From: Methanomicrobia archaeon
GTDB taxonomy: Archaea; Methanobacteriota_B; Thermococci; Methanofastidiosales; NM3
Assembly (NCBI GenBank): GCA_030603445.1
Contig: JAUVXU010000003.1
Coordinates: 1-64,000, forward strand
Direction of reading: 5' to 3'
Length of the DNA: 64,000 bases
The position numbers were made by a program, and so were the translations under genes. Under the pieces are notes generated by a model, which saw only the letters and a list, made by a program, of their open reading frames with translations, ran no database searches and had not been told where the DNA came from. Shown in pieces: positions 20,337 to 36,192 of this stretch (position 1 is its first letter; each line of letters begins with the position of its first letter).

Positions 20337-20442
20337 ATATAACGTATACCATTAAAAGAAGATACTAAGCAATTTGGATGGGGCAGAAAGTACAACCCCT
20401 GGAGTCGTCTGCAAAGGGCATCTCATCCTCCTTTTGTTATAT
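20337..20442. repeat. attC-like intergenic repeat (site 1)
   Basis: Begins with ATATAAC (20337-20343) and ends with GTTATAT (20436-20442), perfect reverse complements 106 bp apart. Inside lie AAAAGAAGATACTAAGC and AATTTGGATGGGG, the core shared with the other sites, and CTTTTG mirroring AAAAGAAG. This matches the R''-L''-L'-R' layout of integron attC sites, where only AAC/GTT are conserved in sequence. Function is inference from form. Confidence 0.6.
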
Positions 20443-20462
20443 GTGCACTAAATTATTGATCA

Positions 20463-22865
20463 CTAACCCTTATTTTTTCTATCCACAAACATCAACAACA
20501 CCGGCAATATAAAAACGGCAGCTATAAAACTATAAATGACCATAAGCGCAGTCAGAATACCAAACATGACAAACATCTTGAATGAGGCGAAAGCTAGAAC
20601 TGAAAAACCCAATGCCGTGGTTGCAGTAGCACCCATTAGTGCCGTCCCTGTAGACGAGAGTGTCTTTTCGATAGCTTCTTTTAGCCTCTTACCGTTGGCT
20701 CGCTCTTCTCTATACCTGTGCGTAATATGAATGGAATAATCAACACCGACACCGATTGTTAGAGCTGATATCATGATAGTTATCAGGTTAAAACTATAAC
20801 CTAGAGCAGACATTGTTCCTAGAATCCATATTGTGACCAGACAGACCGGGATCATAGTGACGATGCCGAATTTAAATGATCTGAAGACCAGCAATAAAAT
20901 GATGAAACAGACTACAAGGCATATCCCTATGGAAGAGAACATGGTGTTTATCATTGCTATCGAGATGATATGCACGATAAATTCCTCACCAGTGGGAACC
21001 GAATCTATTCCTTGGATCTGGTCAAGCGGTTTAATGTCGTTTTTCATCTCTTCCATTAATTTTTCGGTATCTGCCCCATATGTTTTTTGGAGATCAACAT
21101 ACAACACGGTCTTATCATAATCCCCTTCTGTCCTGTGAAGCACATGGCGGATATCGGTGGCAGTCGTGTTCCCGATCCCTTCTTCATACAGGTGATCATA
21201 TACGATGATAACGTCTTCTCTTGTATCCGGTAACAGATCATTGTTTTCGTCATTAACTTTAAGCTCCTCTCGAAGTGTAGGATCTTGCATGACCTCATTT
21301 AGATATGGAACAATGCAAGTTACCATTGGTGTGGCGTTGATGATGATCACGTATTCGTCATCCTTCATATTGTCAACTGTCCTTTCCATAGCTTGCAGAA
21401 CCTCTGGTTCGGTGATATTTCCTTCTACTAAGATTGCCGCTTTCTCCGTACCGCTCTGTGGAAAATATTCTTGCATCAGACCGATAGTATAAAAGGAGGA
21501 TGAATCCTCAGATATGAAGTCCGTAGGAGAGAAACTCGTTTCGACCTGGAGTGCACCTGCGACCGAGACTATCGTAATAAGAAATACGGTAACAAGGACA
21601 ATGGATGGTTTTGCTGTGATCTTTAAGATAAATGGTACGAATCTATGTTCTTTGTCCCCTTTTTTCATATTCACTTTGGTCATTTTTTTCTCTTTTTGGT
21701 CTCCTTTACTATCCAATAACAATCTCAATGCCGGAATGAATATTCCCATGATGACAAATGCAGAAAAGATGCCGATACCAAGCATCAGGCCGAAATCCCG
21801 AATGGCCGGGATCGGGGAGATGATATTTGAGAAGAATGCAGCGGCAGTGGTGGCAGTTGCCAGAAATATTGCAACACCAATGTGGATTATACTCTGATTA
21901 ATAGCATCTTTTGGAACTGCGCCCTTTTCCCGTTCTTCCTTGTATCTCAAAAGTGAATGTATCGCGTAAGCTATTCCTAATGCTAAGACCAGTATCGGTC
22001 CGAAGAATGAGAGCATTGTCATTTTCAGGCCCATCGCACCACCTATTCCAAACATCCAGATGAATGTTATTGGAATACCGATAAGCGATAACAAAACGTC
22101 GCCTATGCGTCGAAGGCTAAGATAAAGTATAATAATCACCAGGAGGATGCTGATCAGAAGGAGCTTCATAGCATCCATCATGCCATCTTCCATACCCACA
22201 TTAAAACCTGCTAGATGTGAGACCTCTGTATGTTCAAGTTCTGTACGGGAAACCGTATCCATAATTGCCAGCAGACCCACATCATCATCCGGCAACGTGT
22301 TTAGAAGTGTATTGTTTAGCTGCGTTACTATTATGGCTATGCTTGCCTCATGCCCGTTTTCTGATATATTCAGATCGTTGGAAACCATTGCCCTGAGTTC
22401 TGGGATCTGAAGTGTTTGGCCTATCACTTCATCAAGCTGCGATCTCGATGCATTTTCCAGAGTTGTCCCGAACTTGAAGTTAAGAGCTTGATCTATTATA
22501 TCTGCAATGCTCATGACATTGTTCTGGTCATTTATGAGATATTTTTGTACATCTTCGTTCGCCCTGATATTTCTCTCAATCTCAAGCATTTCAAGCAAGC
22601 ATTCCCTTGAGAGTATGTTCCCATTTTCTGCCTCCACTATGGTAAATATCCTCCTGGCCTGGTCTGGAAAATCACTATCGATCGTATCATTAGCCCTCAC
22701 AACTTCGTTATCGGGGGAAAAATCCCTCATTTCAGTTTCCATCGTGAGATTCATGAGCGGAAAGGTACTCAAAATCGTAATGAGGAGTATCAATGACACG
22801 ATGGTTTTCGGATGGTTTGTTAGTATGTCGGCAATCTTTTCTGTAGTTTTTATTTTTACGGCCAT
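20463..22865 (-). CDS. RND-superfamily exporter (MMPL/HAE3-type, predicted hydrophobic-substrate transporter)
   Basis: About 800 residues from ATG 22865 (MAVKIKTTEKIADIL). Twelve membrane segments in two similar halves: TM1 near residue 20, a large outside loop (~55-225), a TM bundle with the sterol-sensing-like segment GPILVLALGIAYAIHSL, then a second TM-loop-TM half with the equivalent ALTIGVGVDYSIHITHRY. No periplasmic-adaptor gene is present, as expected for archaeal HAE3 proteins, thought to move lipids or hopanoid/isoprenoid-like molecules. Upstream genes encode a small membrane protein and an HTH regulator, in the same direction, likely an operon. Confidence 0.85.
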   Translation of the reverse strand: MAVKIKTTEKIADILTNHPKTIVSLILLITILSTFPLMNLTMETEMRDFSPDNEVVRANDTIDSDFPDQARRIFTIVEAENGNILSRECLLEMLEIERNIRANEDVQKYLINDQNNVMSIADIIDQALNFKFGTTLENASRSQLDEVIGQTLQIPELRAMVSNDLNISENGHEASIAIIVTQLNNTLLNTLPDDDVGLLAIMDTVSRTELEHTEVSHLAGFNVGMEDGMMDAMKLLLISILLVIIILYLSLRRIGDVLLSLIGIPITFIWMFGIGGAMGLKMTMLSFFGPILVLALGIAYAIHSLLRYKEEREKGAVPKDAINQSIIHIGVAIFLATATTAAAFFSNIISPIPAIRDFGLMLGIGIFSAFVIMGIFIPALRLLLDSKGDQKEKKMTKVNMKKGDKEHRFVPFILKITAKPSIVLVTVFLITIVSVAGALQVETSFSPTDFISEDSSSFYTIGLMQEYFPQSGTEKAAILVEGNITEPEVLQAMERTVDNMKDDEYVIIINATPMVTCIVPYLNEVMQDPTLREELKVNDENNDLLPDTREDVIIVYDHLYEEGIGNTTATDIRHVLHRTEGDYDKTVLYVDLQKTYGADTEKLMEEMKNDIKPLDQIQGIDSVPTGEEFIVHIISIAMINTMFSSIGICLVVCFIILLLVFRSFKFGIVTMIPVCLVTIWILGTMSALGYSFNLITIMISALTIGVGVDYSIHITHRYREERANGKRLKEAIEKTLSSTGTALMGATATTALGFSVLAFASFKMFVMFGILTALMVIYSFIAAVFILPVLLMFVDRKNKG

Positions 22866-23028
22866 GACATGTCCTCGACACACATGATGACCATCGGTAT
22901 AAAAATAGCTTTTCCAAATTCATTCCTAAATCTATCCAAAATTAGAAGCTATCAAAAGGTCCAGTGACAAATGGATACAAATTCTTGAAAACTGGAAATT
23001 ACCTTGAAAATCTGGCCGTGATGCGAAA

Positions 23029-23331
23029 TCATTCCCAAATGTTCTTCAAAAATATAGAAAGGCCGATGCATTCAATTATATTGACCAAAAACATGACGGG
23101 GGGGCCGTCGTACATATGTAATTCGGGAAAAAATATGTGAAGAGAGGCAGTGATGATAATCACGATGCTTTTTAGCAAAAAAGCGGATGCAAAGAATATA
23201 AGGCCCATTGTGAACTTAGATTTTACATTCTTGTAGAGTCCCCGGAAAACGTAGAGCAATCCAAGTAATAGACAGAGGTTTATAACTTCCACCCCGAGCA
23301 TTATGTATATCATCCATTCTGCTATAATCAT
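23029..23331 (-). CDS. Small integral membrane protein of unknown function
   Basis: 100 residues with three predicted membrane helices (YIMLGVEVINLCLLLGLLYV, FTMGLIFFASAFLLKSIVII, and PPVMFLVNIIECIGLSIFL). No family recognised; similar small three-helix proteins lie beside archaeal HTH regulators. Between the RND exporter and the HTH gene in the same orientation, it is probably part of that operon, perhaps as a membrane-bound sensor partner. Confidence 0.6.
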   Translation of the reverse strand: MIIAEWMIYIMLGVEVINLCLLLGLLYVFRGLYKNVKSKFTMGLIFFASAFLLKSIVIIITASLHIFFPELHMYDGPPVMFLVNIIECIGLSIFLKNIWE

Positions 23332-23377
23332 GTTCTTCCCTCTTTCACCAATTATTATAAATCATATCGTTCAGCTA

Positions 23378-23692
23378 TTATTTTTTGCTGATTTGATCCC
23401 ATATCTCCTTGAAAATATCGTAATTTTTTTCCGTACTAATCGAAAGGAAATACATTGTGCCGTAGCTTTTCCCTCCAGACAATGAAATTATATTGTTATC
23501 TTCCAGGACTTTAAGATGATGTCTTACAGTCGTATAGTCCAATCCAAGTTTTTTAGTAAGTTGATTTGCATTATAGGGCCTATCGTGAAGCATCTTGATT
23601 ATTCTGGCACGATTCAAACCACCTTTCATTCCGCCAATTAAAAACCATAGGAGCCTTTGCATATGTATATCTAACCCATTCGATCCAGACAT
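23378..23692 (-). CDS. ArsR/HTH_20-type winged-helix regulator
   Basis: 104 residues. The winged helix is clear: RARIIKMLHDRPYNANQLTK, then LGLDYTTVRHHLKVLEDNNI (recognition helix) and a short wing with GGKSYG. The N-terminal IHMQRLLWFLIGGMKGG segment is typical of archaeal regulators paired with a small membrane protein. It is followed by the membrane protein and RND exporter, so it probably controls that operon. Ligand unknown. Confidence 0.75.
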   Translation of the reverse strand: MSGSNGLDIHMQRLLWFLIGGMKGGLNRARIIKMLHDRPYNANQLTKKLGLDYTTVRHHLKVLEDNNIISLSGGKSYGTMYFLSISTEKNYDIFKEIWDQISKK

Positions 23693-23832
23693 TCTATCAT
23701 TCTCTATGGTTTTTATTCTTAGCTTTCTGTTGTGTTTGATATCTTAATCTATGATTTTATATACTTTGTTCATATTCCCTCTTTATTCTACAAGTCATGC
23801 ACATCAATTACATGCCCTTTGTTGGTGATTTC

Positions 23833-23895
23833 ACATAACGTCAGGAATATATGAAGTTTTGTATAATGAAACAAAGCAAAATTTCGAGTTGTGAT
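23833..23895. repeat. attC-like intergenic repeat (site 2)
   Basis: Left 7-mer ACATAAC at 23833-23839, then ATATATGAAGTTTTG...AAACAAAGCAAAATTTCGAG, matching site 9 at 34991 over the whole core. No convincing right GTT-type 7-mer follows, so this copy may be decayed. Confidence 0.5.
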
Positions 23896-23930
23896 TCCAC
23901 CATATAAAAAAGATAGTTTCCGTCGGTAAC

Positions 23931-24485
23931 CTAATTTTCTAAAATAATCGCTCTGCTAAAAAGCACCTTTTCTTTTTTAGATCGTTTTAATCCCGCTTCC
24001 TTTGCAATATTTATTGTATCTTCAAAAGCATTTTTAGAAACATGGAACATAGGTTCTATAATAAACATTTTTCCATTTGTTTTTAACATAGACTTTATTT
24101 CTTTAAAAAAATTCATTTGATTAGGGACTTCATGAATCATATAAAAAGCTAGAACAAAATCAACTTTTTCTGAGATTCCAATTTTGTTCTTTTCGCATTG
24201 ATGTAATTTGATTCTTTTTTCAATTTCTGTTCCTATAATTTTATTTTCTACTTTTTTGAGCATGCCTTCTTGTAGATCTGCTGCAATGACTTTGCCTGTT
24301 TTACCAACCATTTTTGCCATTTCGATTGAAAAAAGTCCTGGACCACATCCGACATCTAATGCGATCATTCCTTCTTTAACATAATCTTTTAGAAGTTTTT
24401 TAGGGTTATGAACCCATTTTCTAAAAATATTATCAAGATTTCCTGCATTTTCAACTGGGCATATTCTTTCATTTTTTTCTTTCAT
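23931..24485 (-). CDS. Class I SAM-dependent methyltransferase (UbiE/arsM-like fold)
   Basis: 184 residues. SAM loop MIALDVGCGPGLFSIEMAKM (about residue 40), acidic strand KVIAADLQEGML, and motif IV KVDFVLAFYMIHEVPNQMNF. The C-terminus is short with a GLKRSKKEKVLFSRAIIL strand. Small-molecule methylation is likely; substrate not inferable. Its stop is about 35 bp from the end of site 2 and it is 19 bp downstream of the DUF1801 gene. Confidence 0.8.
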   Translation of the reverse strand: MKEKNERICPVENAGNLDNIFRKWVHNPKKLLKDYVKEGMIALDVGCGPGLFSIEMAKMVGKTGKVIAADLQEGMLKKVENKIIGTEIEKRIKLHQCEKNKIGISEKVDFVLAFYMIHEVPNQMNFFKEIKSMLKTNGKMFIIEPMFHVSKNAFEDTINIAKEAGLKRSKKEKVLFSRAIILEN

Positions 24486-24504: not shown

Positions 24505-24861
24505 TTATGATAATTTAAAAGATTCTTTAATATAAAATTCTACTTTTTTGTTTTTAATGTCTTCAAACAGGAAAATTTTTATGTGTCTTCTCTGTTTTCC
24601 TGTTCCTTCTAAAATATTATCAGGATCAGGTATCATCGCCCCCAAGCTAAACTCAACGGAAATATGATTTTTTCTGATAAATATTCCACAAATTAATTTT
24701 GTATCAATTATAAAAACTAAACCGCCATATTTTATTTCTTCTTTTGCATCAGGTTTTATTTCTAAAACCATTTTTCTTAAAGAGATTAGTATCTCTCCTT
24801 TTTCTTCATCAATAAAAAGTGTGTCTTGAATAAAGTTATCAATTTTAGGATTTGCTTTCAT
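24505..24861 (-). CDS. DUF1801-domain protein
   Basis: 118 residues. The family signature is visible as DEEKGEILISLRKMVLEIKPDAKEEIKYGG, then LICGIFIRKNHISVEF and the closing GTGKQRRHIKIFLFEDI. DUF1801 (YdhG-like) proteins adopt a small alpha/beta fold found widely in cassettes and accessory DNA; molecular role unknown. It forms a two-gene unit with the methyltransferase after it. Confidence 0.75.
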   Translation of the reverse strand: MKANPKIDNFIQDTLFIDEEKGEILISLRKMVLEIKPDAKEEIKYGGLVFIIDTKLICGIFIRKNHISVEFSLGAMIPDPDNILEGTGKQRRHIKIFLFEDIKNKKVEFYIKESFKLS

Positions 24862-24921: not shown

Positions 24922-24991
24922 GCCTAACGTTTCGCGGATATGAGAAGTTGCAAACGAAGTAAGCAATTTGGGTGATCTCTGGGCGTTTCAT
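24922..24991. repeat. attC-like intergenic repeat (site 3)
   Basis: GCCTAAC at 24922-24928, the textbook attC R'' sequence (RYYYAAC), then GTTTCGCGGATATGAGAAGTTGC and AAACGAAGTAAGCAATTTGGG; right end GTTTCAT at 24985-24991. AGTTGC pairs with GCAATTT around the middle. It abuts the stop of the DUF5655 gene. Confidence 0.6.
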
Positions 24992-25338
24992 TAGCTCATC
25001 AATTTATATGATTCTTTAAGAAAGGCAACAAATTTTGTGTCAATGTCATCGGGTGTTTTTAATCTGAAATAATTGTGATATCTATTCTTTGACACTTGTT
25101 CGCATCTAATAATTCTCTCATCCTCGATAGGATGATCTAAAACCATATTGAAATCCAACCAATTCTTTTTTGGATGAACTCCGCCAAAATCAGATTTACT
25201 TGTTAGATGAATACAAGTCTTCTTCGGGTTAATTTCTACTTGACCAATGTTTTTCTCAATAGTTTCTACAATTTTCAAGTAAGTTTGATATACAATTGGA
25301 TTTCTTTCTGAAAATAATTTTTCTGTTAATGAGTTCAT
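24991..25338 (-). CDS. DUF5655-domain protein
   Basis: 115 residues, complete domain: LTEKLFSERNPIVYQTYLKI, VEINPKKTCIHLTSKSDFGG, NWLDFNMVLDHPIEDERI and the closing HYFRLKTPDDIDTKFVAFL. DUF5655 proteins are small cytoplasmic proteins of unknown function, related in outline to DUF1801 partners and common in mobile cassettes. Its stop codon coincides with the right end of site 3, as expected of a compact cassette. Confidence 0.75.
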   Translation of the reverse strand: MNSLTEKLFSERNPIVYQTYLKIVETIEKNIGQVEINPKKTCIHLTSKSDFGGVHPKKNWLDFNMVLDHPIEDERIIRCEQVSKNRYHNYFRLKTPDDIDTKFVAFLKESYKLMS

Positions 25339-25369: not shown

Positions 25370-25948
25370 TCATTTTCTCAGTTTCAAACAATAGTTCTTT
25401 CGCTTTACAATTTCATCCAATATTGAATGAAAAATCTTAGATTTATCTTTAATTTCTAACCCGATAGAATCTTTCTTCGCTTTAGTTAATGCCTCTTTCA
25501 ATTCTTCAACTTCAAAAATAGTAACGGCTATACAATAGTAGTTTTTCGAGCGCCCTTCATTAAAATCTTGCAACATCTCCTTGAGTAATTTTTCTCTGAT
25601 TTTCTGCACCTTTTCAAACTCACTAGCTCCATGCTTCCAGATAAAAGAAATATTATCTTCAAGTTTTTGATAACATTTGAATGTATCATGCAGTTTCCCA
25701 AATTCCCTATGCTTTTTCCATTTCTCACAAATTTGATTTTCCTCACAATCCGAGCAAAACTCAATTCCTTTTTTCTTTACTGCACAAGTGATAAAAGGAC
25801 AGCCGGCACCCATTCTAAATTCACTCTTGCACCCTTCGCATTTGCTTTTAGCCTCTGTATGGTATCTAGGACAGAGTCTGCAAGAGAGCCCACAAATTCC
25901 GATTTCAGGGTATTTAATTTGCATGATTATTTCTTTTGACATATACAT
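25370..25948 (-). CDS. DUF3795 Cys-rich protein
   Basis: 192 residues. Two Cys clusters: GICGLSCRLCPRYHTEAKSK with CEGCKS (residues ~15-40), and CPFITCAVKKK...FCSDCEENQICEKW (~49-75), the DUF3795 pattern probably binding zinc or an iron-sulfur centre. The C-terminal half is Lys-rich helical. A paralogous DUF3795 gene lies at 31768-32181. Role unknown. Confidence 0.8.
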   Translation of the reverse strand: MYMSKEIIMQIKYPEIGICGLSCRLCPRYHTEAKSKCEGCKSEFRMGAGCPFITCAVKKKGIEFCSDCEENQICEKWKKHREFGKLHDTFKCYQKLEDNISFIWKHGASEFEKVQKIREKLLKEMLQDFNEGRSKNYYCIAVTIFEVEELKEALTKAKKDSIGLEIKDKSKIFHSILDEIVKRKNYCLKLRK

Positions 25949-25993: not shown

Positions 25994-26073
25994 ATATAAT
26001 GTTTGGCAGATAAAAGAAGTTACCAAAGGCAATTTGGGCGAAGCAAAGCGGAGTCGTGCAGTCGCTGTTAGGC
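25994..26073. repeat. attC-like intergenic repeat (site 4)
   Basis: Left ATATAAT (25994-26000), right GTTAGGC (26067-26073), the latter a canonical attC R' (GTTRRRY). Core AAAAGAAGTTACC, AAAGGCAATTTGGGCGAAGC, followed by GGAGTCGTGCAGTCGCT. It lies between the DUF3795 and BtrH-like genes with no other content in the gap. Confidence 0.6.
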
Positions 26074-26157: not shown

Positions 26158-27141
26158 CTATTTTATATGGTATAACAGTTCCATTGCTTTTTTCTCTTTT
26201 TCTGATAAATCAACTAAAATTTCAGACGCTTGATTTATAAATTCAATATCTTTTGTTTTACCTGCTTTGTCAAATAGAGTTGAGACTTTTGCCCATTGAT
26301 TCGCAATATCGGAAAACATTTTGTATGCTTGATTTAATTGTTCTATTTGCAACAAATCATAACTTTCTTTTAAAAAGTCCCTGTAAAGATTTCGGAAAAG
26401 AGCTCCACCTGTTCCGGCTTTTTCCATTAACATTGCTGTTGTTGTAAAATCTCTTTCAATGTCTTTACTGCTTTTGAACCATTTTTTTATTTCAACACTT
26501 GTTTTTAATATGCCTTTGTATCCTATGTTCTTTATTGGTGGGTTTAGATAATCTTTTGCATTATTCTTTATTGCTGTAATAATAGATTTTTTTAGGTTGT
26601 AGCTTTTTTCTGTTTTCTGAATAGTATAAAATAGATTTCTTGAAGACATTGGGCCTTTTTCATTTCGAGCTAATTCAAGGTTTTTTAAAGATGTTTTTAC
26701 TTTTCCACCTTGTTGTTGAGTATCAATCAAATATGCAAATTCATTATCATATCCATACATTGCAACATAATGGCCTGCAAAATGAAATTTATTTGTAAAA
26801 TATTCTAAATGATAGCAATCTAATTTTAAACCAACTGCAACTCCTTGATCAATATTGTTTTTCACGCTTTCCCATGCTTTTTTTATTGAAGATGTTTCTT
26901 TTACTATTAATTTTAAATTCAAATTATTCGTAATATTCTGAGTAAGAACATCTGGTTTTATTCTTCCGCCAATAAATGGGAAATCCATTATTTTCATATT
27001 CCAAAAAATAAAACCTAAACCTTCCCCTAATCCAAAAAGCATTGGTTCAGAAAGTTTAATTCCAAGTTGATTCAATAAACTTCCAGTTGCTGTAGTTTCA
27101 CAATGTTGTCCATTAAACTGCCTGAAATTTTTAATTGTCAT
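26158..27141 (-). CDS. BtrH-like acyltransferase/peptidase-fold protein (BtrH N-terminal plus DUF4872)
   Basis: 327 residues. GQHCETTATGSLLNQLG places a candidate nucleophile at Cys14; FAGHYVAMYGYD (about 147) gives the His and YLIDTQQQGG the Asp of a papain-like triad. BtrH transfers an acyl chain from a carrier protein in butirosin synthesis; related archaeal and bacterial proteins are of unknown substrate. The C-terminal half (DUF4872 region) is helical with WAKVSTLFDKAGKTK. No carrier-protein gene is nearby. Start ATG 27141. Confidence 0.75.
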   Translation of the reverse strand: MTIKNFRQFNGQHCETTATGSLLNQLGIKLSEPMLFGLGEGLGFIFWNMKIMDFPFIGGRIKPDVLTQNITNNLNLKLIVKETSSIKKAWESVKNNIDQGVAVGLKLDCYHLEYFTNKFHFAGHYVAMYGYDNEFAYLIDTQQQGGKVKTSLKNLELARNEKGPMSSRNLFYTIQKTEKSYNLKKSIITAIKNNAKDYLNPPIKNIGYKGILKTSVEIKKWFKSSKDIERDFTTTAMLMEKAGTGGALFRNLYRDFLKESYDLLQIEQLNQAYKMFSDIANQWAKVSTLFDKAGKTKDIEFINQASEILVDLSEKEKKAMELLYHIK

Positions 27142-27172: not shown

Positions 27173-27252
27173 ATATAACGTTTTAATAGTACAAGAAGTT
27201 GTCGAAGGCAATTTGGGGAAATATTTAGCTTCCCTCTTATCCGCTGTTGTGT
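27173..27252. repeat. attC-like intergenic repeat (site 5)
   Basis: ATATAAC (27173-27179), core ACAAGAAGTTGTCGAAGGC and AATTTGGGGAAA, right part CTCTTATCCGCT followed by GTTGTGT (27246-27252). The core GAAGTT..GGCAATTTGGG is nearly identical to site 4. Confidence 0.6.
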
Positions 27253-27350: not shown

Positions 27351-28199
27351 TTACATATCCTCCATTACAGGTTTATCTTCAATAAAATTAGAAGGCAATC
27401 CAATTTTCTTAAAATAATCAACCATTGACATGCATGCGAATTTTTCAGTAGAATAATGAGTTCCACCCAAAACATTTATTCTATGTTTTTCAGCAAATTC
27501 ATGTGCTTTTTTTGAATGATCGTTTTTTGCAGTAATTCCTGTAACTAAAACATTTACCTTGTTTTGTGCTATTTCTTCGATGGTCTCATCTAAGCCACCG
27601 CCTGCGACAACTGCAACAGTTCCATTTGATATTTCACTATCCCCATAATTATACAAACTAACCTTGTGGCCGACCATTTCTTGAAATTTTCTTCTTAAAT
27701 CTTGAACTGTTGCTAAATCAGTTTTTCCAAACACTCCGCACAAGGAGCCAAAGTAGAGGGCAAAAGGTTTTTCCGGTTTAATATCTAATGCTTTTGCTAA
27801 AGTGACGCTTGTTGAATATTTCCCATAATTATCCAGAGGTACATGAAGATTGTAAATAGATATTCTTCTATCTTTGAATTGTTGCAATAATTTTCTATCC
27901 ATCTGCTGAAAAACTTCTGGGGCTTTTCTAATATCCCATATCGAGGGATGATGAACAAAAAGCATCGCATCTTGAGTCCCGTCATCTAAAATTCTTTGCA
28001 TAACCTCTCTTGATGGAAAAACAGCAGTATATACTTTATTAATTTCTGTTGCAAAATCACAAACTAAACCCATTGATCTTTTCTTAAAGTTCTCACTAAG
28101 AAAATCAGCAACAGAGTCCATATACTCTGCCCATTCATCACTCATTTCTGGAGTGATAAAATCTTTTTCAAGTCGTTGATATAGTTGTGTTGCTTTCAT
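27351..28199 (-). CDS. Nif3-like dinuclear metal centre protein
   Basis: 282 residues. Metal-binding blocks are FVHHPSIWDI (about 88), NLHVPLDNYGKYSTSVTLAK (about 118) and GGTHYSTEKFACMSM (about 250), the order found in NIF3/DUF34 proteins. Family members are proposed to be metal-dependent hydrolases, including GTP cyclohydrolase I-like and cofactor-repair roles; the exact reaction here is unknown. It follows site 5 and seems to be a single-gene unit. Confidence 0.85.
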   Translation of the reverse strand: MKATQLYQRLEKDFITPEMSDEWAEYMDSVADFLSENFKKRSMGLVCDFATEINKVYTAVFPSREVMQRILDDGTQDAMLFVHHPSIWDIRKAPEVFQQMDRKLLQQFKDRRISIYNLHVPLDNYGKYSTSVTLAKALDIKPEKPFALYFGSLCGVFGKTDLATVQDLRRKFQEMVGHKVSLYNYGDSEISNGTVAVVAGGGLDETIEEIAQNKVNVLVTGITAKNDHSKKAHEFAEKHRINVLGGTHYSTEKFACMSMVDYFKKIGLPSNFIEDKPVMEDM

Positions 28200-28688: not shown

Positions 28689-29135
28689 TTATAACTTCTT
28701 TTTCATTTCAATGGTGTCCCCAAAATCTTCTGAATGAAGCATTTTTATTTTCTTATATCCCCTGTGTTTGTAAAATTCAAAAGAAGTCAAGCTAGAAGAT
28801 AATTTGGCTGTTTTGTATCCGTTCTTTTTTGCTAAATCTTCAACTCTGTCCATTAGCTTTGAGCCAATGCCTTTGCCATGAATATTTGGATTAACAAAAA
28901 CGGTCGATATATTATCATCTTTTAAACTAGCAGTTCCGAGAATTTTTTCATTCTCCGCGGCAACAAAAACATTTCTTTCTTTTGAATACTGAATTAGTTT
29001 AGCAGGGGTGAAATGCTTATGCATAAATTCTATTACACTTTTTGGATAATCTTTACTATTGACCTCAGAAAGGCACTTTCTAGTTAAGTTAGAAACTTTT
29101 CTTGCATCTTCTTTTTTGAAGTTCCTAATACGCAT
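28689..29135 (-). CDS. GNAT-family N-acetyltransferase
   Basis: 148 residues, one GNAT domain: N-terminal MRIRNFKKEDARKVSNLTRK, acetyl-CoA loop STVFVNPNIHGKGIGSKLMD (about 85-105) and the closing ASLKDDN/SSLTSFEFYKHRGYKK strand-helix. Start ATG 29135. Substrate unknown. One of four GNAT genes in this window; GNATs are frequent cargo of integron cassettes. Confidence 0.8.
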   Translation of the reverse strand: MRIRNFKKEDARKVSNLTRKCLSEVNSKDYPKSVIEFMHKHFTPAKLIQYSKERNVFVAAENEKILGTASLKDDNISTVFVNPNIHGKGIGSKLMDRVEDLAKKNGYKTAKLSSSLTSFEFYKHRGYKKIKMLHSEDFGDTIEMKKKL

Positions 29136-29200
29136 AGTATTAATAAGAATTTAAGATGCTATAAATTTTCTGTTCTCAGACGCAAAAGTGAATACAATAT

Positions 29201-29290
29201 TTTGAATATACGAAGTTTAGCAGAAAATTCCGAAAAGTAAAATTTGAGCTCCAATCCATATTTCCTTATTGCCCGGATACGCAACATAGA
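29201..29290. repeat. Possible decayed attC-like repeat (site 6)
   Basis: TTTGAATATACGAAGTTTAGC and GTAAAATTTGAGCTCC repeat the central core of sites 2 and 9 in the gap upstream of RuBisCO, but neither outer 7-mer is clear (CCGGATACGCAACAT is a weak right part). Low confidence as a functional site. Confidence 0.35.
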
Positions 29291-29391: not shown

Positions 29392-30816
29392 ATGTTGGAA
29401 AAACATCAACTACTAATTAAAACACTTAATGAAAAACAAAAAGCCTATTTAAATTTAAATTTGCCGAATCCAAGAAATGGAGAATATCTTCTTACAGTTT
29501 TTCATCTTATCCCTGGAGAAAAATTAAATATCTTGCAAGCAGCAGCAGAAGTTGCGGCCGAATCTTCTACTGGAACAAATTTTAAGGTAGATACGGAAAC
29601 GCCCTTTTCTAGAGAAATGAACGCTCTTGTTTACCAACTTGATTTAAAAAGAGAATTAGTGTGGATAGCTTACCCCTGGAGACTTTTTGATAGGGGAGGA
29701 AATATTCAAAATATCTTTACATATATAGTGGGAAATGTTTTGGGAATGAAACAAGTCAATGCCCTAAAATTATTAGATGTGTGGTTCCCTCCTGCAATGC
29801 TTGAACAATATGATGGTCCGAGTTATACGATTGATGATATGAGAAAATATTTAGATGTATATGACAGACCTATTCTTGGAACCATTGTAAAGCCAAAAAT
29901 GGGGCTTACATCTTCTGAGTATGCAGAAGTGGCTTATGATTTTTGGGCAGGAGGCGGAGATTTTGTCAAAAATGATGAGCCGCAGGCAAACCAGGATTTT
30001 TGTCCATATGACAAGATGGTAAAATATGTAAAAGAAGCAATGGATAAAGCAGTTAAAGATACTGGAAAGAAAAAGGTCCATTCTTTCAATGTTTCTGCAG
30101 CTGATTTTGACACGATGGTTGAAAGATGTGAAATGATTATAAATGCTGGTTTTGAACCTGGAAGTTACGCATTTTTAATTGATGGAATTACTGCCGGGTG
30201 GATGGCAGTTCAAACTTTAAGAAGAAAATATCCAGATGTATTTATTCATTTTCATAGGGCGGCCCATGGGGCGTTTACAAGAGTAGAAAATCCATTGGGT
30301 TTTTCAGTTTTAGTTCTATCTAAATTTGCAAGGTTGGCAGGAGCATCAGGGATCCATACTGGAACGGCTGGCGTTGGAAAGATGTCTGGAAACCCGGAAG
30401 AAGATGTTGTAGCTGCACATAACATTCAATACTTTACAGCAAAAGGGCATTTCTTTGAACAGAGCTGGGGAAAGATTCCTGAAAAAGATGAAGATGCGAT
30501 AAAACTTGTTCATGAAGATCTTACACATCTTCTTATTTTAGAAGATGATAGCTGGAGAGGAATGAAAAAATGCTGCCCCATTATCTCGGGAGGGTTAAAT
30601 CCAGTTTTGTTAAAACCATTTATTGACATAATGAACAATACTAATTTTATAACTACAATGGGGGCGGGGGTTCATGCTCATCCGGGAGGAACAAAAGCAG
30701 GAGCTAAGGCATTGGTTCAGGCGTGCGAAGCTTATAAAAAAGGAATAGATATTGAAAAATATTCCAAGAAACACAGCGAGTTGGCAGATGCCATAAAATT
30801 CTTCTCAAAAAAATAA
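29392..30816 (+). CDS. rbcL: Ribulose-bisphosphate carboxylase large chain, form II/III type
   Basis: 474 residues. Active-site residues are complete: Lys167 in GTIVKPKMGL, carbamylated Lys193 with Asp195 and Glu196 in GGDFVKNDEPQANQ, loop-6 Lys330 in GTAGVGKMSGNP, and the phosphate loop IISGGLNP. KNDEP is the form II reading rather than the form III KDDEN; with HRAAHGAFTR this fits the archaeal II/III group. Such enzymes fix CO2 on ribulose-1,5-bisphosphate made from nucleosides by AMP phosphorylase and R15P isomerase; neither gene is in the window. It is the only plus-strand gene of the central island and is monocistronic. Confidence 0.9.
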   Translation: MLEKHQLLIKTLNEKQKAYLNLNLPNPRNGEYLLTVFHLIPGEKLNILQAAAEVAAESSTGTNFKVDTETPFSREMNALVYQLDLKRELVWIAYPWRLFDRGGNIQNIFTYIVGNVLGMKQVNALKLLDVWFPPAMLEQYDGPSYTIDDMRKYLDVYDRPILGTIVKPKMGLTSSEYAEVAYDFWAGGGDFVKNDEPQANQDFCPYDKMVKYVKEAMDKAVKDTGKKKVHSFNVSAADFDTMVERCEMIINAGFEPGSYAFLIDGITAGWMAVQTLRRKYPDVFIHFHRAAHGAFTRVENPLGFSVLVLSKFARLAGASGIHTGTAGVGKMSGNPEEDVVAAHNIQYFTAKGHFFEQSWGKIPEKDEDAIKLVHEDLTHLLILEDDSWRGMKKCCPIISGGLNPVLLKPFIDIMNNTNFITTMGAGVHAHPGGTKAGAKALVQACEAYKKGIDIEKYSKKHSELADAIKFFSKK

Positions 30817-30944: not shown

Positions 30945-31421
30945 CTATAATAATATTCTCATTTTAACAAATTGGTGTTTGTCCCCATTTGTTTCCTGCA
31001 TATACTCTTCAACTATCTCAAATCCTATCTTTTTGTATGTTTTTATTGCACGTTCATTAAACTTTGCTACTACTAACATTATATAATGCCCATCATATCC
31101 ATAATGCTTTATACCAAATTTTATACCAGACATTGCAAAATCGGACCCATACCCTTTTCCTGTATATTTGGGGTTAAGCCCAAAACCAACCCACATGACA
31201 TTATAGATAAAAGAAAAAGAATAAAAACCAATCAATTCTTTGGATTGATTTAAGACCGCAAATATATACTTCCATTGTTTTAAATCCAAGAAATCATTTA
31301 AATCTTCTTCATCAGCAGTCATATCATAAAAAGAATAAATACCTTCATATTTCCACTGATAAGCAATTTCATTGGCATATTTTTCATTCATTGGGACATA
31401 ATTATATTTCATAGAGATCAT
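30945..31421 (-). CDS. GNAT-family N-acetyltransferase (RimJ/RimL-like)
   Basis: 158 residues. YNYVPMNEKYANEIAYQWKY at the N-terminus, acetyl-CoA binding VGFGLNPKYTGKGYGSDFAM (about 85-105) and VAKFNERAIKTYKKIGFEIV match aminoglycoside/ribosomal GNATs. Start may be the first or the fourth residue Met. Substrate unknown. A divergent repeat of the second type follows its promoter region at 31450. Confidence 0.8.
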   Translation of the reverse strand: MISMKYNYVPMNEKYANEIAYQWKYEGIYSFYDMTADEEDLNDFLDLKQWKYIFAVLNQSKELIGFYSFSFIYNVMWVGFGLNPKYTGKGYGSDFAMSGIKFGIKHYGYDGHYIMLVVAKFNERAIKTYKKIGFEIVEEYMQETNGDKHQFVKMRILL

Positions 31422-31505: not shown

Positions 31506-31660
31506 TTAAATCCAAATAAAAATATTTTGGAAATAAATAAATCTTTCCCCAAACCATTTTAAAAAAGTTAAATATATTTGATAATACTAATGCTGTAAAA
31601 ACCTCATTTTTATAACAATGTTCTTTTTAGATTTTGTATAAAATTATCTTTTTTTGCACC

Positions 31661-31752
31661 CTTAAGATTGTGATAAAAAAGAGAAGTTTTCACGAATTGA
31701 AGATTTGAGTGAGACACGAGCCGAGTGTCAAACCTTTTATCCATTGTTAGAC
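31661..31752. repeat. attC-like intergenic repeat (site 7)
   Basis: GATAAAAAAGAGAAGTTTTC at 31671 onward, GAAGATTTGAGTGAG, then CTTTTATC pairing with GATAAAA, and right end GTTAGAC (31746-31752). The left 7-mer is degenerate. The next left 7-mer, ATCTAAC at 32217, is complementary to GTTAGAC at six of seven positions, framing the DUF3795 gene between them. Confidence 0.55.
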
Positions 31753-31767: not shown

Positions 31768-32181
31768 TTATACAATTACTTCTTTTCCACATCTACTACA
31801 TTTGTAATGATAAAAAATGACGATTCCTCCACAGGAAGGGCATGACCATCTTCGCTTCTGATACTCAAGATAGTTTACCATCCCTATTTGTTTCATCTTT
31901 TCAAAAATCTCCGGAATCTCATGTCTGTACCTAAATTTCGGGTCTCCAAGATGAGTATCAAGAAGTTTCTTCCTATATTTTTCACATGGAAAATTACTAC
32001 AATCAATGCAGAAATCTTTCTCTTCAATATTATAGCAACAATCCCTTATTTTGCATCCCCATTTGCTTGTTCTTTTTTGTTCTTTACTTTCTGAGGCACA
32101 TCCAAGACAAGTCTTATTAAAGGAAGGACATGCTCCACAAAAAACTCCACAAGGAGCCAATTCATTTGGTATTTGTTTCAT
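31768..32181 (-). CDS. DUF3795 Cys-rich protein with C-terminal zinc ribbon
   Basis: 137 residues. N-terminal DUF3795 pattern: APCGVFCGACPSFNKTCLGC, then GCKIRDCCYNIEEKDFCIDC. A C-terminal zinc ribbon WSCPSCGGIVIFYHYKCSRC ends the protein. Fourteen cysteines in 137 residues. Paralogue of 25370-25948 but diverged. It is a single-gene unit framed by complementary 7-mers (GTTAGAC 31746, ATCTAAC 32217), the clearest one-gene cassette candidate. Confidence 0.8.
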   Translation of the reverse strand: MKQIPNELAPCGVFCGACPSFNKTCLGCASESKEQKRTSKWGCKIRDCCYNIEEKDFCIDCSNFPCEKYRKKLLDTHLGDPKFRYRHEIPEIFEKMKQIGMVNYLEYQKRRWSCPSCGGIVIFYHYKCSRCGKEVIV

Positions 32182-32216
32182 ATTATTTCCTTCATTTGTT
32201 AGATATTTAGCATGCC

Positions 32217-32241
32217 ATCTAACGTTTTGTGGATATTCTTA
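32217..32241. repeat. Left half of an attC-like repeat (site 8a), interrupted
   Basis: ATCTAACGTTTTGTGGATAT matches the left arm of site 3 (GCCTAACGTTTCGCGGATAT) but stops where the duplicated fragment of core genes begins at 32242. The right part of the site is missing here. Confidence 0.5.
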
Positions 32242-32321
32242 ACGTCCTAAATTTCTTCATCGTTCTGCCTTTAAAAACTCTAAAAACTCCTGGGTATGCT
32301 TGTTGATAAGAGGCATCCTTT
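32242..32321 (-). repeat. Displaced 80-bp copy of a core-gene junction
   Basis: Nearly identical to 39465-39545 (about five differences by eye, one a single-base indel). The original spans the start codon of the HTH gene 39082-39483 and the last ~20 codons of the gene 39480-40616. The copy encodes no complete protein, so it is a scar of recombination or capture inside the island. Same orientation as the original. Confidence 0.8.
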
Positions 32322-32379
32322 AGTAAATTAATTATTAGTTCTTTTTATATTTTATTTCAGGCGTTCCAAAGCCGATTGC

Positions 32380-32452
32380 GTATAACACTAAGATTTAAAG
32401 AAGTTTACGAAACGAAGTGGAGCCGGCTATTCGCTGATACATGTGGTTGTGT
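32380..32452. repeat. attC-like intergenic repeat (site 8b)
   Basis: GTATAAC (32380-32386), core TTTAAAGAAGTTTACGAAAC, GAAGTGGAGCCGGC, right end GTTGTGT (32446-32452). It ends 9 bp before the stop of the methyltransferase gene. Confidence 0.5.
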
Positions 32453-32460
32453 CAAATATT

Positions 32461-33231
32461 TCAGGACACTTTATCAGCTCTTGTAACAATAAAAGCATTC
32501 GTGAATTCATCTAGTAATTCTTCGCCTTTATCCTCATAAAATCCGGAAATGCTAAAACCAGCCTCTATCTGGCCATTGATTTGGTCTGTAAGGCTATGCC
32601 CGAATTCGAATGGCGCCATATTTTCAGTATACTCTTTCTTTTTAGCATCTGATAAAGATTTTAAATCAGAATATGGGATAGCAGTTTCTATTACACATTT
32701 TCTTGTCTTCTCAGCTTTTTCCCAGTTTATCATATACATAATAGGATTATTAAATCCAGATAATAATCTGCCATTCTTTTTTAGGACCCTGTAAGCTTCC
32801 CTCCAAACAGGCAAAATATCATCAATAAAACAATTTGAAACTGGATGAATTATCAGATCAAAAGTATCATCTGAAAATATTGACAGATCTTGCATATTTC
32901 CTTTTACAGTTTTTATATTTAAATTGTATTTAACTGCAATTTTTTTATCTTGTTCAAGCTGTTTGTCGGAATTATCAAATACAGTTACATTTGCACCTGC
33001 AGCAGCCAAGATAGGACCTTGCTGTCCTCCCCCCGAAGCTAAGCACAAAACATTCTTATTAACTATATTTCCAATCCACTCTTCTGGAACGGTCTTAAAA
33101 GGCGTTAGGACAATTTTTATTATGCCTTTTTTAGCTTCCTGTATCTGTTCTTCTGAAATTGGGATGGTCCATTGATTTCCTTTTTTAACTTCATTGTTCC
33201 ATGCAATTCTATTATGTTCTAATAAATTCAT
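32461..33231 (-). CDS. Class I SAM-dependent methyltransferase
   Basis: 256 residues. NRIAWNNEVKKGNQWTIPIS is the N-terminal signature of a bacterial/archaeal methyltransferase group; the SAM loop is NVLCLASGGGQQGPILAAAG (about 80-100), followed by VTVFDNSDKQLEQDK and DTFDLIIHPVSNCFI. Substrate unknown. Framed by attC-like sites 8b and 9a (33261), so it is a one-gene cassette candidate. Confidence 0.8.
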   Translation of the reverse strand: MNLLEHNRIAWNNEVKKGNQWTIPISEEQIQEAKKGIIKIVLTPFKTVPEEWIGNIVNKNVLCLASGGGQQGPILAAAGANVTVFDNSDKQLEQDKKIAVKYNLNIKTVKGNMQDLSIFSDDTFDLIIHPVSNCFIDDILPVWREAYRVLKKNGRLLSGFNNPIMYMINWEKAEKTRKCVIETAIPYSDLKSLSDAKKKEYTENMAPFEFGHSLTDQINGQIEAGFSISGFYEDKGEELLDEFTNAFIVTRADKVS

Positions 33232-33260
33232 TTCTTATACTTCCTTTTTGGTATAATTAC

Positions 33261-33348
33261 ATATAACGCATGTCATTAAAAGAAGTTACGTAAGAAATTT
33301 GAATGGAGAAACCTGCAAGATTTCGTAGTCTTTTATCTGTCGTTATAT
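33261..33348. repeat. attC-like intergenic repeat (site 9a), perfect outer 7-mers
   Basis: ATATAAC (33261-33267) and GTTATAT (33342-33348) are exact reverse complements. Between them lie CATTAAAAGAAGTTACG, GAAATTTGAATGGAG and CTTTTATCTG, the last pairing with the AAAAG of the left arm. Site 1 at 20337 shares ATATAACG, ATTAAAAGAAG and the right 7-mer, about 13 kb away. Confidence 0.65.
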
Positions 33349-33508
33349 TCCCAAAAAAAGAAATTTCAGAGTAAATCTGGAACCCGTTTATTTGAATTTA
33401 AAGGAATTGTCGTATTCAATTCTATCTATTTTGGAATTTTGCAACCAGTTCTTTTTGTTTTTTGTTCGATTGTAAGATTTTTTGGATTTTAGACATATTT
33501 TTACCTAT

Positions 33509-34099
33509 TCAAATATGAATTATAAATTTACAGCTTTTTGCTCCAGTGATTACTGATTGCACAAGTTCTACTTCAACTGGTTTTTCGAGCGCTACTTCAA
33601 AAAACTGCTTTTCCCATTCAGCACCACACTGACAATATGTGTCTGTAGAAAAAGGTTCTTTAGTTTGTTTAACCTGTCCGCAAAAGCATTTATCATACTC
33701 CACGATAACTGTATTCTTGTTTTTTAATTTGAAGCTAACGCCTTTATAATTTTCATTTAATTTATCAAGAAATTCATTAATAGACTTTGATTCACTCATC
33801 AATTTCTTCACAGTCTTTCTATGTCCCTGCCCGCAGCATTTTTGACCGCAGGCCTTCATTATCTGGACTACTTTTTCCTTGTCCAATTCTTTTTCTAACT
33901 GTTCAATAGCTTCTTTCCACCACTCAGCTTGTTTGACGGGGTTAAATGAATTGTATTTGTCCGAACCCCGCATGATTTTCTCCAAAATCTCTTGATCAAC
34001 TTCTGCCATAAGGATTTTTGCAAATCGTCCTATTCTGCCCGTTACTGGGATCTTTGCGCCGGATTTATTTTTTGTAATCATGGTGTTTTCTCCATTCAT
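33509..34099 (-). CDS. Cys-rich protein with V4R-like C-terminus (DUF6144-like)
   Basis: 196 residues. Cys motifs ACGQKCCGQGH (about 88), YDKCFCGQVK (about 138) and DTYCQCGAEWEKQFFE (about 153), ending VELVQSVITGAKSCKFIIHI. The end resembles V4R-type small-molecule-binding domains and the whole resembles DUF6144; both calls are tentative. Metal or iron-sulfur binding is likely. It shares a unit with the DUF4332 gene upstream (19 bp apart). Confidence 0.5.
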   Translation of the reverse strand: MNGENTMITKNKSGAKIPVTGRIGRFAKILMAEVDQEILEKIMRGSDKYNSFNPVKQAEWWKEAIEQLEKELDKEKVVQIMKACGQKCCGQGHRKTVKKLMSESKSINEFLDKLNENYKGVSFKLKNKNTVIVEYDKCFCGQVKQTKEPFSTDTYCQCGAEWEKQFFEVALEKPVEVELVQSVITGAKSCKFIIHI

Positions 34100-34118
34100 A
34101 ATGTTAAATTAGCGTAAT

Positions 34119-34856
34119 TTAATATTGAATGACTTTTGGAACATCTTTAGAAACATTGACACATAACTGAATATCTTTCACGGTAAATTTCCCTTTTGTA
34201 TACTTCCTTTTATTATTAATTTCTGCAAGTTTCTTAAAAAGATTCTCTGCCTTTGATTTTGATATTTTTTCCGCTGTATCTGTTCCAGATTCTAAGAAAA
34301 TTCTAGCAAATATTGGTCCAATCCATTTTATTCTTGATATATCTGTTAATTTTACAAGTTCCATTAGTTCTTCGCTTGAAATATTTGCTTGTTTGGCTAA
34401 TTCAGATCTTTCCTTTTTTGTTTTAATTTTTCCAAATAAATGCTTCGTGTTTTTAAGGCCAAATTTTCCCAGTTTATCTATTACCTCATTTTTTATACCA
34501 GGAAATTTATTTAAGTTTACAGGTTTTGGCTGATAACTATTAACTTCCCTTATTAGAATTGTAAGATAATCCTCCGGCAAACCTGATTTTTTAGCAAATT
34601 CTTTTACATTTTTTGGTGTTTTCAAAACATTGACTATATCCTGAAGATTTTTAATCCCCTGTTTTTTTAGGCATTTGATTCTTTCTCCTATTTGCTCTTT
34701 TAAAATCATTCTACTCGGAATCATTTCTGATTGTTCAAGCACTTTCTGGTATTTTTCAATACTAAAATTTTCTAAATTGATATGATAGTTATCAGTCGTT
34801 TTGCTTGCATCCTTAACACTGATGTTTGGTGTAAGACTTTTCGTTGTTGCCCCCAT
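34119..34856 (-). CDS. DUF4332 helix-hairpin-helix protein
   Basis: 245 residues with repeated helix-hairpin-helix units: KCLKKQGIKNLQDIVNVLKT, VIDKLGKFGLKNTKHLFGKI and DISRIKWIGPIFARIFLESG, as in DUF4332 proteins. These units usually bind nucleic acid or serve as protein scaffolds; no catalytic domain is present. Together with the gene after it, it lies between complementary 7-mers GTTATAT (33342) and ATATAAC (34991). Confidence 0.7.
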   Translation of the reverse strand: MGATTKSLTPNISVKDASKTTDNYHINLENFSIEKYQKVLEQSEMIPSRMILKEQIGERIKCLKKQGIKNLQDIVNVLKTPKNVKEFAKKSGLPEDYLTILIREVNSYQPKPVNLNKFPGIKNEVIDKLGKFGLKNTKHLFGKIKTKKERSELAKQANISSEELMELVKLTDISRIKWIGPIFARIFLESGTDTAEKISKSKAENLFKKLAEINNKRKYTKGKFTVKDIQLCVNVSKDVPKVIQY

Positions 34857-34915
34857 AATTACTATATTAAAAATTAAAATTTATAAATATAATCATTTTT
34901 TGGAATTAAGTAGGA

Positions 34916-34942
34916 AAAAATACAATATTATCCCCCTCTTTT
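34916..34942. repeat. 27-bp direct repeat, copy 1
   Basis: Identical to 36015-36041. The shared core is ACAATATTATCCCCCTC. Both copies are followed within 50-60 bp by GAAAAATATTTTTT and then an attC-like site, so the repeat belongs to a larger conserved junction. Confidence 0.75.
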
Positions 34943-34990
34943 TAGAAAGCCTATCTAATGTATAAGAACGAAAAATATTTTTTGAATTAT

Positions 34991-35106
34991 ATATAACATT
35001 TGGGATATACGAAGTTTTGCGGAATGAAACGAAGCAAAATTTGGGTGAGGAGCGATAATGACGAAAGCGCAGCGTTCCTTTGAGTTCCGAACCCCACCCG
35101 TTTCAA
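34991..35106. repeat. attC-like intergenic repeat (site 9)
   Basis: ATATAAC (34991-34997), TTTGGGATATACGAAGTTTT, GAAACGAAGCAAAATTTGGG; GAAGTTTTGC and GCAAAATTT pair. GGGTGAGG at about 35043 pairs with CCCCACCC at 35092, giving a second stem; right end GTTTCAA (35100-35106). The best preserved copy of the core. Confidence 0.6.
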
Positions 35107-35159
35107 TCAATCATTATTCAGAAATTTTCTTTGATAAAATCACTGATCCATCTTCTTGA

Positions 35160-35777
35160 TTATTTTTTAGCCTCATTTTTCCATCGGGGTAGTTCTGGCA
35201 TCATTTCATCAATCATTTTTTCTGCATCCTCTCTTGTTTTACCCATAAATTTCATTGCCGCGTTTATGCTCCCCTCTCTTACCTGTTCCTTGCTTGCCAA
35301 TTCACCTGTTTGTTGATTCTGACAATGGATGCAATATCGGTTGTCGATTTTAGATGTTGTGCTTTCATCAATCGAAAGCGGCATTCCGCAACTTTCACAC
35401 TGAACCATTCTTGCATCTTCATCACATTCCCAAAGCCCAAAGGTATTATTTTCAGTGTCAATGCAAATCGCAGCATATCCTATACTTGGGACAGCTGTTT
35501 TTGGCATCACTATTTTGCCACCGAGTTTTTCAACTTTGGCAATATATACATCAATTGAGGGAACATCAATATAATTGACAATTGCATCTGACGGGTTTTC
35601 TCTTTTTCCAAGCCCGCCGCCAAGACCTTTTTTACCGTCTTCATCTACTGTTTCAATTCCGTAGTATTCCACAGGGCCTGGCATTTTTTCAATTTTCCAT
35701 CCAAATAGTTCAGTATAGAACTTCTTTGCTCGCTCTATATCATCTGCTGGCACCATAAAATGAGTTATTGCTGGCAT
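35160..35777 (-). CDS. VOC (glyoxalase-like) protein fused to a zinc-ribbon domain
   Basis: 205 residues. Residues 1-125 form a glyoxalase-type VOC domain: ITHFMVPADDIERAKKFYTE, LFGWKIEKMPGPVEYYG and NTFGLWECDEDA. Residues 128-205 carry MVQCESCGMPLS...NRYCIHCQNQ, a four-Cys zinc ribbon, then a helical tail EDAEKMIDEMMPELPRWK. This fusion recurs in archaea and bacteria; the substrate is unknown. A strong ribosome site GGAGGTGG stands 5 bases before ATG 35777. Confidence 0.8.
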   Translation of the reverse strand: MPAITHFMVPADDIERAKKFYTELFGWKIEKMPGPVEYYGIETVDEDGKKGLGGGLGKRENPSDAIVNYIDVPSIDVYIAKVEKLGGKIVMPKTAVPSIGYAAICIDTENNTFGLWECDEDARMVQCESCGMPLSIDESTTSKIDNRYCIHCQNQQTGELASKEQVREGSINAAMKFMGKTREDAEKMIDEMMPELPRWKNEAKK

Positions 35778-35856
35778 TTTTATCCACCTCCTTATCTTAT
35801 TTAAATTAAATTTGAATATATATAAAATTTTTTCTAAAAGCGGGGTTTGGAATTTT

Positions 35857-35925
35857 ATATAACTAATATTAAACGAACCTTTTGTTCGCTTAATACCTTG
35901 TCTCAGAGTTAAAGCGAAGTTTTAT
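35857..35925. repeat. Second island repeat type, copy 2
   Basis: ATATAAC (35857-35863), TTAAACGAACCTTTTGTTCG, CTTAATACC and TTAAAGCGAAGTTTTATAAA. Pairs with 31450-31505. CGAAC/GTTCG and GCTTAA/TTAAAGC form nested inverted repeats. The leading ATATAAC links it to the attC-like family. Confidence 0.5.
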
Positions 35926-36014
35926 AAAGTTGGATTGAAGCAGATTTGAAATTAAAATTTCTCTATAAAAAGGCATGGACGCTAAGCATAGATTTCATCT
36001 AATAATTTATTGTC

Positions 36015-36041
36015 AAAAATACAATATTATCCCCCTCTTTT
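36015..36041. repeat. 27-bp direct repeat, copy 2
   Basis: Exact match to 34916-34942, 1.1 kb away, in the same orientation and at the same distance from an attC-like site. Confidence 0.75.
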
Positions 36042-36098
36042 GTTTTAGAAAAAATCAATTTATTCCTTTTCATCTTAGAAAAATATTTTTTAGATTGA

Positions 36099-36192
36099 GC
36101 ATAATATCGAGATTTAGAGAAGTTTTCGACGAAGTTAAAAATTTGAATGGAAGAAACTGAAATTTTCTGGAACCCCTAAATCTTTGTTATGT
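36099..36192. repeat. attC-like intergenic repeat (site 10)
   Basis: GCATAAT (36099-36105) and GTTATGT (36186-36192) bound it; inside, AGATTTAG (36110-36117) and CTAAATCT (36176-36183) are exact reverse complements at matching distance, the R/L arm arrangement of attC. Core AGAAGTTTTCGACGAAG and AAATTTGAATGG as in site 9a. Confidence 0.6.

Follow-up and report, generated by a model that had tools for sequence, protein, structure and literature searches.

An integron-type cassette array in a Methanofastidiosales archaeon and its probable link to Xer-like recombinases without the I2 helix

Integrons were described from archaea in 2022 (Ghaly et al., PMC9668308). The published systems are cassette arrays with attC-like sites, most of them without an integrase (clusters of attC sites lacking integron-integrases, CALIN), and they are characterized by acetyltransferase and methylation-related cargo and by sharing across domains. 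The same features are found in a 64,000-nucleotide stretch from a Methanomicrobia archaeon of the order Methanofastidiosales (assembly GCA_030603445.1, contig JAUVXU010000003.1, positions 1 to 64,000; the whole stretch is referred to here as the window, and its contig as C11). An earlier note, made from the sequence of this stretch alone, had proposed an integron-type cassette array, and the attC-like hairpins, the gain of the region as an island and the matches to a covariance model trained on other organisms all bear this out; the region is almost certainly a cassette array of this type. The published archaeal IntI proteins, however, have the integron-specific domain, whereas the integrase that we link to the present sites lacks it, and the bulge of the sites is on the other arm. 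We consider it likely, from sequence comparisons, that this is an integron-like and CALIN-like array now without an integrase locus of its own, and that its cognate enzyme belongs to a clade of Xer-like recombinases (family I) rather than to canonical IntI. Because archaeal integrons are already published (PMC9668308), the novelty is that of a variant, and because Aenigmatarchaeota, which are in the set of Ghaly et al., hold the present site family, published CALIN lists may already include part of that family.

Canonical attC sites have extrahelical bases on the R''-L'' arm, which steer strand choice (PMC2727003). The I2 helix of IntI docks these bases; it is held to enable the use of single-stranded attC and has been reported from no other proteins (PMC7790495). 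With the class 1 and Vibrio integrons (PMC2727003, PMC7790495) the present system shares the RYYYAAC/GTTRRRY boxes, an imperfect palindrome folding into a hairpin with L arms and unpaired spacers, the G|TT crossover (here as read from sequence), an attI next to the integrase, and the SAM_4 and Phage_integrase domains. Unlike them, it has its bulge on L' rather than L'' and no I2-bearing IntI at the head of its arrays; family I has an additional N-terminal domain, lacks the I2 helix, and is co-oriented with the cassettes. In both enzyme and site, then, it is the same feature that differs from the canonical pair. Covariance models of the two kinds of site are also mutually blind. Model R3, which was built from nine class-1 attC sites and is narrower than published attC models, matches no site in the window, though it finds untrained class-1 sites at 19–33 bits, and model R2, trained solely on 124 sites of the present family from other organisms, matches no class-1 attC site. 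The attC form seen in the earlier note thus holds for the AAC/GTT boxes, the imperfect-palindrome fold and the G|TT boundary, but the bulge is on the opposite arm and the class-1 model does not recognize the sites.

On the minus strand, which is that of the genes, the repeats read R'' (AYAYAAC), a short spacer, L'', a loop with CAAATT, AACTTC/L', a spacer and R' (GTTATAY). Reading the region on both strands confirmed the presence of the repeats reported previously, most of which stand as sites, although one (32217–32238) is only a half site, a G|TT junction adjoining a copied fragment of host DNA, and three others are degenerate, with the core and one R box. All are on the minus strand. R2 has eight matches with E<1 over the window, every one of them at a claimed site and five at E <= 1e-3. 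The five are at 27173–27252 (53.5 bits, E 1e-10; R-box pairing that includes wobble), 25994–26073 (52.3 bits, E 2e-10), 36099–36192 (39.4 bits, E 4e-7; an 8-bp L arm and good R-box pairing), 33261–33348 (30.6 bits, E 6e-5; perfect R boxes and an L arm) and 24922–25009 (25.7 bits, E 0.001). The weakest three, with E values of 0.09–0.22, are at 20337–20442 (17.9 bits; perfect R boxes, ATATAAC/GTTATAT), 31660–31752 (17.8 bits; R' degraded) and 29192–29274 (16.4 bits, E 0.22; degenerate, and carrying repeat D13). Model R1, trained on five window sites and one on contig C8, scores 68.8 bits at 31660, a training member, and 18 bits at 32380–32442, where the R'' side is degenerate and the leader TTATACGCAATCGGCTTTGGAACG follows, common to other phyla. 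The other two degenerate sites are core-pattern matches: at 23833–23888 only the right half (L'/R') is clear and the leader TTATGTGAAATC is common to locus L132, and at 34991–35042, which carries repeat D2, the L'/R' half is clear. Folding supports the earlier statement that inner arms pair at some sites: the best sites pair over both the R and L boxes (33261 and 36099, with clear L arms), and the L arms are partial at 20337, which pairs chiefly over R, and at 31660. Among the sites found by R1 or R2 at least two lie less than 4 kb apart with no integrase nearby, the arrangement by which a CALIN is recognized.

These sites belong to a family that extends well beyond this genome. Within the 1.62-Mb genome itself, nine of 17 minus-strand matches to the core pattern fall within ~12 kb of the array region, and further site-like matches are on contigs C8, C24 and C41. 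When named genomes were scanned with the same pattern, at least 120 stretches were obtained, against an estimated ~4–8 by chance. The 80 stretches taken further belong to anaerobes among both archaea and bacteria (Methanophagales, Argoarchaeum, Bathyarchaeota, Aenigmatarchaeota, Altarchaeum, Dehalococcoidia, Cloacimonadota, WOR-3 and KSB1, among others), and R1 aligned 124 sites within them. In this alignment 82.8% of cells are paired, as opposed to 30–44% with the partner slid, and the covariation score is 0.348, as opposed to 0.05–0.11. Because the alignment leans on R1, a model-free arm test was also made, in which pattern matches fix one half of the site and the complement of the L' 8-mer is sought up to 70 nt upstream. 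A perfect complement is present in 40 of 81 pattern matches (5.6 would be expected if the motif is taken from another site, and 0.6 if it is shuffled), and YAAC lies directly outside the arm in 52 of the 58 matches that have one. The TT bulge is on the L' arm (the L'-R' side) in 89 of the 93 outside sites that have both flanking pairs.

The family also occurs on viral contigs, one of which (L313 1500–3900; IMGVR_UViG_3300028595_000036) has a very dense array of about nine sites in 2 kb, and a second (L317 9575–10500) is likewise dense in the same sites; some sites in these arrays have coding-like sequence within the hairpin loop. A second and more symmetrical type of hairpin, GATTGTATC...GATACAATC between AAC/GTT boxes, was seen near a true IntI in Argoarchaeum (L309 7272–7336) and directly after a family-I integrase (L106 6262–6323), L106 being the only locus with a site-like hairpin right behind the integrase.

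The point at which cassettes are joined can be read from shared cassette starts. Identical starts follow the R' G of different sites, the sequence preceding the G differs, and identity switches exactly at G|TT; on this comparison, the boundary appears to be the G|TT crossover point of integrons. The cassette following the window site at 32380 begins TTATACGCAATCGGCTTTGGAACGCCTGAAATAAAA, Aenigmatarchaeota locus L069 has TTATACGCAATCGGCTTCGGGACGCCTGAAATAAAA, and the first part of this start is also present in two loci of Dehalococcoidia (L106 and L118) and one of Altarchaeum (L133). That this methanogen-like archaeon has cassette starts in common with Aenigmatarchaeota, Altarchaeum and Dehalococcoidia suggests that organisms of both domains draw on a common pool of cassettes in anoxic habitats. 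Such an exact switch between shared leaders and unrelated sites is difficult to reconcile with the repeats being transcription terminators, structured RNA leaders or repeats akin to miniature inverted-repeat transposable elements rather than recombination sites. They are intergenic and foldable, and several are degenerate, as these explanations would have it, but Rfam has no match at any site (a tRNA is its sole match in the window), arrays elsewhere are headed by an integrase and attI, and the block was gained as an island; we regard all such explanations as very improbable. The idea, derived from the position of the bulge, that the genes run antisense to site polarity was dropped because the order integrase-attI-gene-site and the G|TT leaders place the site at the 3' end of the cassette.

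The array occupies an island of 22.3 kb (15845–38151) that is missing from two congeneric genomes (G001 and G002), in which, by tblastn synteny, 174 bp separate the flanking genes. The left flanking gene (15416–15844, minus strand), GNAT-like by inspection, is there the neighbor of the right one (38152–39081, plus strand), and the collinearity with the same-genus genomes extends over ~9 kb (7059–15844) and ~12 kb (38152–50640) on the two sides. A comparison with relatives, as the earlier note had recommended, thus gives otherwise perfect synteny with the whole island absent from two congeners, and the cargo was gained as a block. This collinearity on both sides, together with the sites on C8, C24 and C41, also makes it hardly credible that the array is bacterial and the contig misbinned. 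Such misbinning does seem to occur among the relatives: a short contig binned in another genome of the order (G020:C115, locus L063) has a family-I C-terminus, attI, cassettes, sites and a bacterial-type recF, and is probably a misbinned bacterial integron of family-I type. The label 'MCR-bearing' (methyl-coenzyme M reductase) previously given to the archaeon is based here on two open reading frames assigned by inspection, McrC-like (57025–57660) and AtwA-like (57629–59239).

Other contigs of the genome hold further traces of the system. R1 has untrained matches at C24:51106–51195 (64.6 bits), C24:50516–50603 (40 bits) and C41:29999–30070 (32 bits), and C24 carries a small array of three sites, the third found by eye, around HD-hydrolase-like and VOC-like genes (named by inspection). 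C8 has a broken recombinase C-terminus followed within 43 nt by GGATATAACTTG|TTATAT and then by one open reading frame and one strong site, the locus running out close to the edge of the contig; the remnant is nearest to family I, with 62% and 83% identity to the copy in Aminicenantes. The claim that the array lacks an integrase therefore holds for the window, and indeed C11 has no tyrosine recombinase match, but the genome does contain this broken family-I integrase with its attI, cassette and site.

Family I is a clade of Xer-like tyrosine recombinases that head arrays in archaea and bacteria, in the same orientation as the cassettes, and such heads were found in Altarchaeum, Aminicenantes, Dehalococcoidia, Methanophagales, Desulfobacteraceae, KSB1, Neomarinimicrobiota, Cloacimonadota and Argoarchaeum. 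In Altarchaeum, for example, an intact integrase and seven sites are present on 11.7 kb. A same-strand site of the family lies downstream of family I at nine of 13 loci with usable downstream sequence and at none of 20 regions of other Xer-like genes used as controls (the grouping is our own, by sequence type); when contigs preselected for a site are set aside, the figure for family I is five of nine. In nine loci an attI-type junction, ATATGAAC[AG]AG|TT, follows the integrase stop at a distance of 43–186 nt; Altarchaeum and C8, which are among the nine, carry variants. These associations suggest that the I2-less clade is probably the cognate integrase of the array.

The domains of family I are a SAM_4 domain as in IntI1, the catalytic domain and an N-terminal extension; the similarity of the extension to HARP is below threshold (18.6 bits against a Pfam cut-off of 25), and the name is a lead only. 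The I2 insert is present in IntI1 and the Argoarchaeum IntI and absent from family I, and the two form separate groups in a tree that gives the clade as a whole modest support (84/84). For the L106 integrase, a structure predicted from a four-row alignment with its TAG taken as Q has a mean predicted local distance difference test score (pLDDT) of 57, and only the N-terminal domain (residues 8–75, ~80–89) is well predicted; this domain has middling Z scores of ~6 to eIF1-type folds. The core-binding domain of this model (mean pLDDT 57) aligns best with the integron integrase 2a3v (Z 13.0, root-mean-square deviation 1.5, 87 residues aligned), and XerA 5hxy ties in Z (13.0) with a deviation of 8.3 over 139 residues in the same alignment. 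Archaeal XerA, XerC and XerD have the I2-less domain plan of family I, with 4a8e, 5hxy and 1a0p as sequence matches in the PDB; unlike family I, the control Xer genes have no downstream same-strand sites and the archaeon's own XerA is on a separate branch. This own-genome Xer, on C5, was rejected as the cassette recombinase, being of XerA type with no model-found array beside the gene, and G013:C118, G013:C206 and the Xer genes associated with IS91 (L202/L203) are not array heads either. The 'inverted' IntI proteins of Spirochaetes (PMC8352920, PMC9668308) resemble family I in having the integrase orientation reversed relative to the array, but they were identified through the additional domain that family I lacks. 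In the literature covered, which was open-access with few subscription papers and no preprints, no account was found of attC arrays with an I2-less integrase at their head.

The alternative that deserves most attention is an ordinary archaeal CALIN with divergent canonical attC sites, served in trans by a canonical I2-bearing IntI of other cells, the I2-less recombinases nearby being incidental. It has in its favor that the R boxes and G|TT boundary are as in attC, that archaeal attC sites vary widely and IntI1 recombined eight of the nine that were assayed at rates similar to that of a standard attC (PMC9668308), and that true IntIs exceed the cut-off in five of 50 site-bearing genomes, an archaeon among them. 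However, none of these five IntIs has a strong site of the family nearby (3–14 kb searched around each), family I heads arrays with a conserved attI, and, as noted above, the bulge is on the opposite arm and each kind of model fails to find the other's sites. The search of the genome for an IntI with the additional integron domain, which the earlier note had advised, gave none over cut-off, and the genomes of the order have no TIGR02249 match over cut-off. We think the canonical alternative unlikely.

Several observations nonetheless weigh against assigning the array to family I or treating it as an active system. First, four of the 13 family-I homologues, including a copy in Bacteroidota, have no adjoining array, and some family-I genes are truncated or contain stops. 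Second, there are site-bearing genomes without a family-I integrase, which leaves room for an IntI acting in trans, and in Argoarchaeum one site-like hairpin (21.9 bits) and a true IntI are 3 kb apart. Third, the model to which the 124 sites were aligned took its structure from this genome, a dependence that the arm test avoids. Finally, present-day mobility of the array is doubtful because several of the window sites are degenerate.

In the explanation that we favor, a cassette consists of a TTRYRY leader, one or more genes and a folded site, and cassettes were joined by site-specific recombination between the G and TT of R' in the imperfect palindromes. Family I, with its SAM_4 and catalytic domains, no I2 and a HARP-like N-terminal domain, would catalyze the joining, presumably through recombination of single-strand hairpins, with the N-terminal domain perhaps assisting recognition of the folded site. 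The archaeon would formerly have had an integrase head, of which C8 is the remnant, and would have received or kept cassettes at C11, C24 and C41. Whether these systems constitute a second integron lineage in anaerobic archaea and bacteria, with an I2-less Xer-like integrase, hairpins with the bulge on the opposite arm and a HARP-like N-terminal recognition module, is a question that we see as evenly balanced on the sequence comparisons; such a lineage would either have invented the capture of cassettes by hairpins independently or be a relic from before the gain of I2. If it exists, surveys that define integrases by I2 would class all of its arrays as CALIN, and natural arrays with I2-less integrase heads would directly test how cassette capture began. 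Because integrase searches keyed to I2 (PMC8352920) cannot see family I, an overlooked cognate enzyme may exist for many of the arrays without an integrase in uncultured archaea and bacteria.

The cargo had been described as typical of cassettes, and Pfam bears out the GNAT, DUF3795 (two copies), DUF1801, DUF5655, methyltransferase and VOC assignments. With one exception the genes between the outermost sites are on the minus strand. They begin with a large predicted membrane protein of 806 aa, MMPL/RND-like by inspection (20463–22883), and a winged-helix regulator-like gene, also by inspection (23378–23692), both recognized as open reading frames, and continue, by Pfam, with a class I methyltransferase (23931–24485), DUF1801 (24505–24861; 3.9e-15), DUF5655 (24991–25338; 3.1e-13), DUF3795 (25370–25948), BtrH_N/DUF4872 (26158–27141), DUF34/NIF3 (27351–28199) and GNAT (28689–29135). 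The exception, on the plus strand, is a RuBisCO large subunit (29392–30816; Pfam 1e-91). It is followed by minus-strand genes for a second GNAT (30945–31421), the other DUF3795 (31768–32181), a methyltransferase (32461–33231), DUF6144 (33509–34099), DUF4332 (34119–34856) and a VOC protein with a zinc ribbon (35160–35777).

The array has two further features. Adjoining the half site, at 32239–32321 (minus strand), is a copy of host positions 39462–39544 with 93% identity over 83 nt. The copied stretch comprises the end of one gene and the start of the next, and the copy ends at GGACG|TTAA, the corresponding host sequence being GGGCG|TCAA; from these junctions, the fragment looks as if it had been captured at a secondary G|TT-like site. 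Lastly, an exact 27-nt repeat, AAAAATACAATATTATCCCCCTCTTTT, is present at 34916–34942 and 36015–36041, similarly spaced from the sites at 34991 and 36099 and on their gene-start side.

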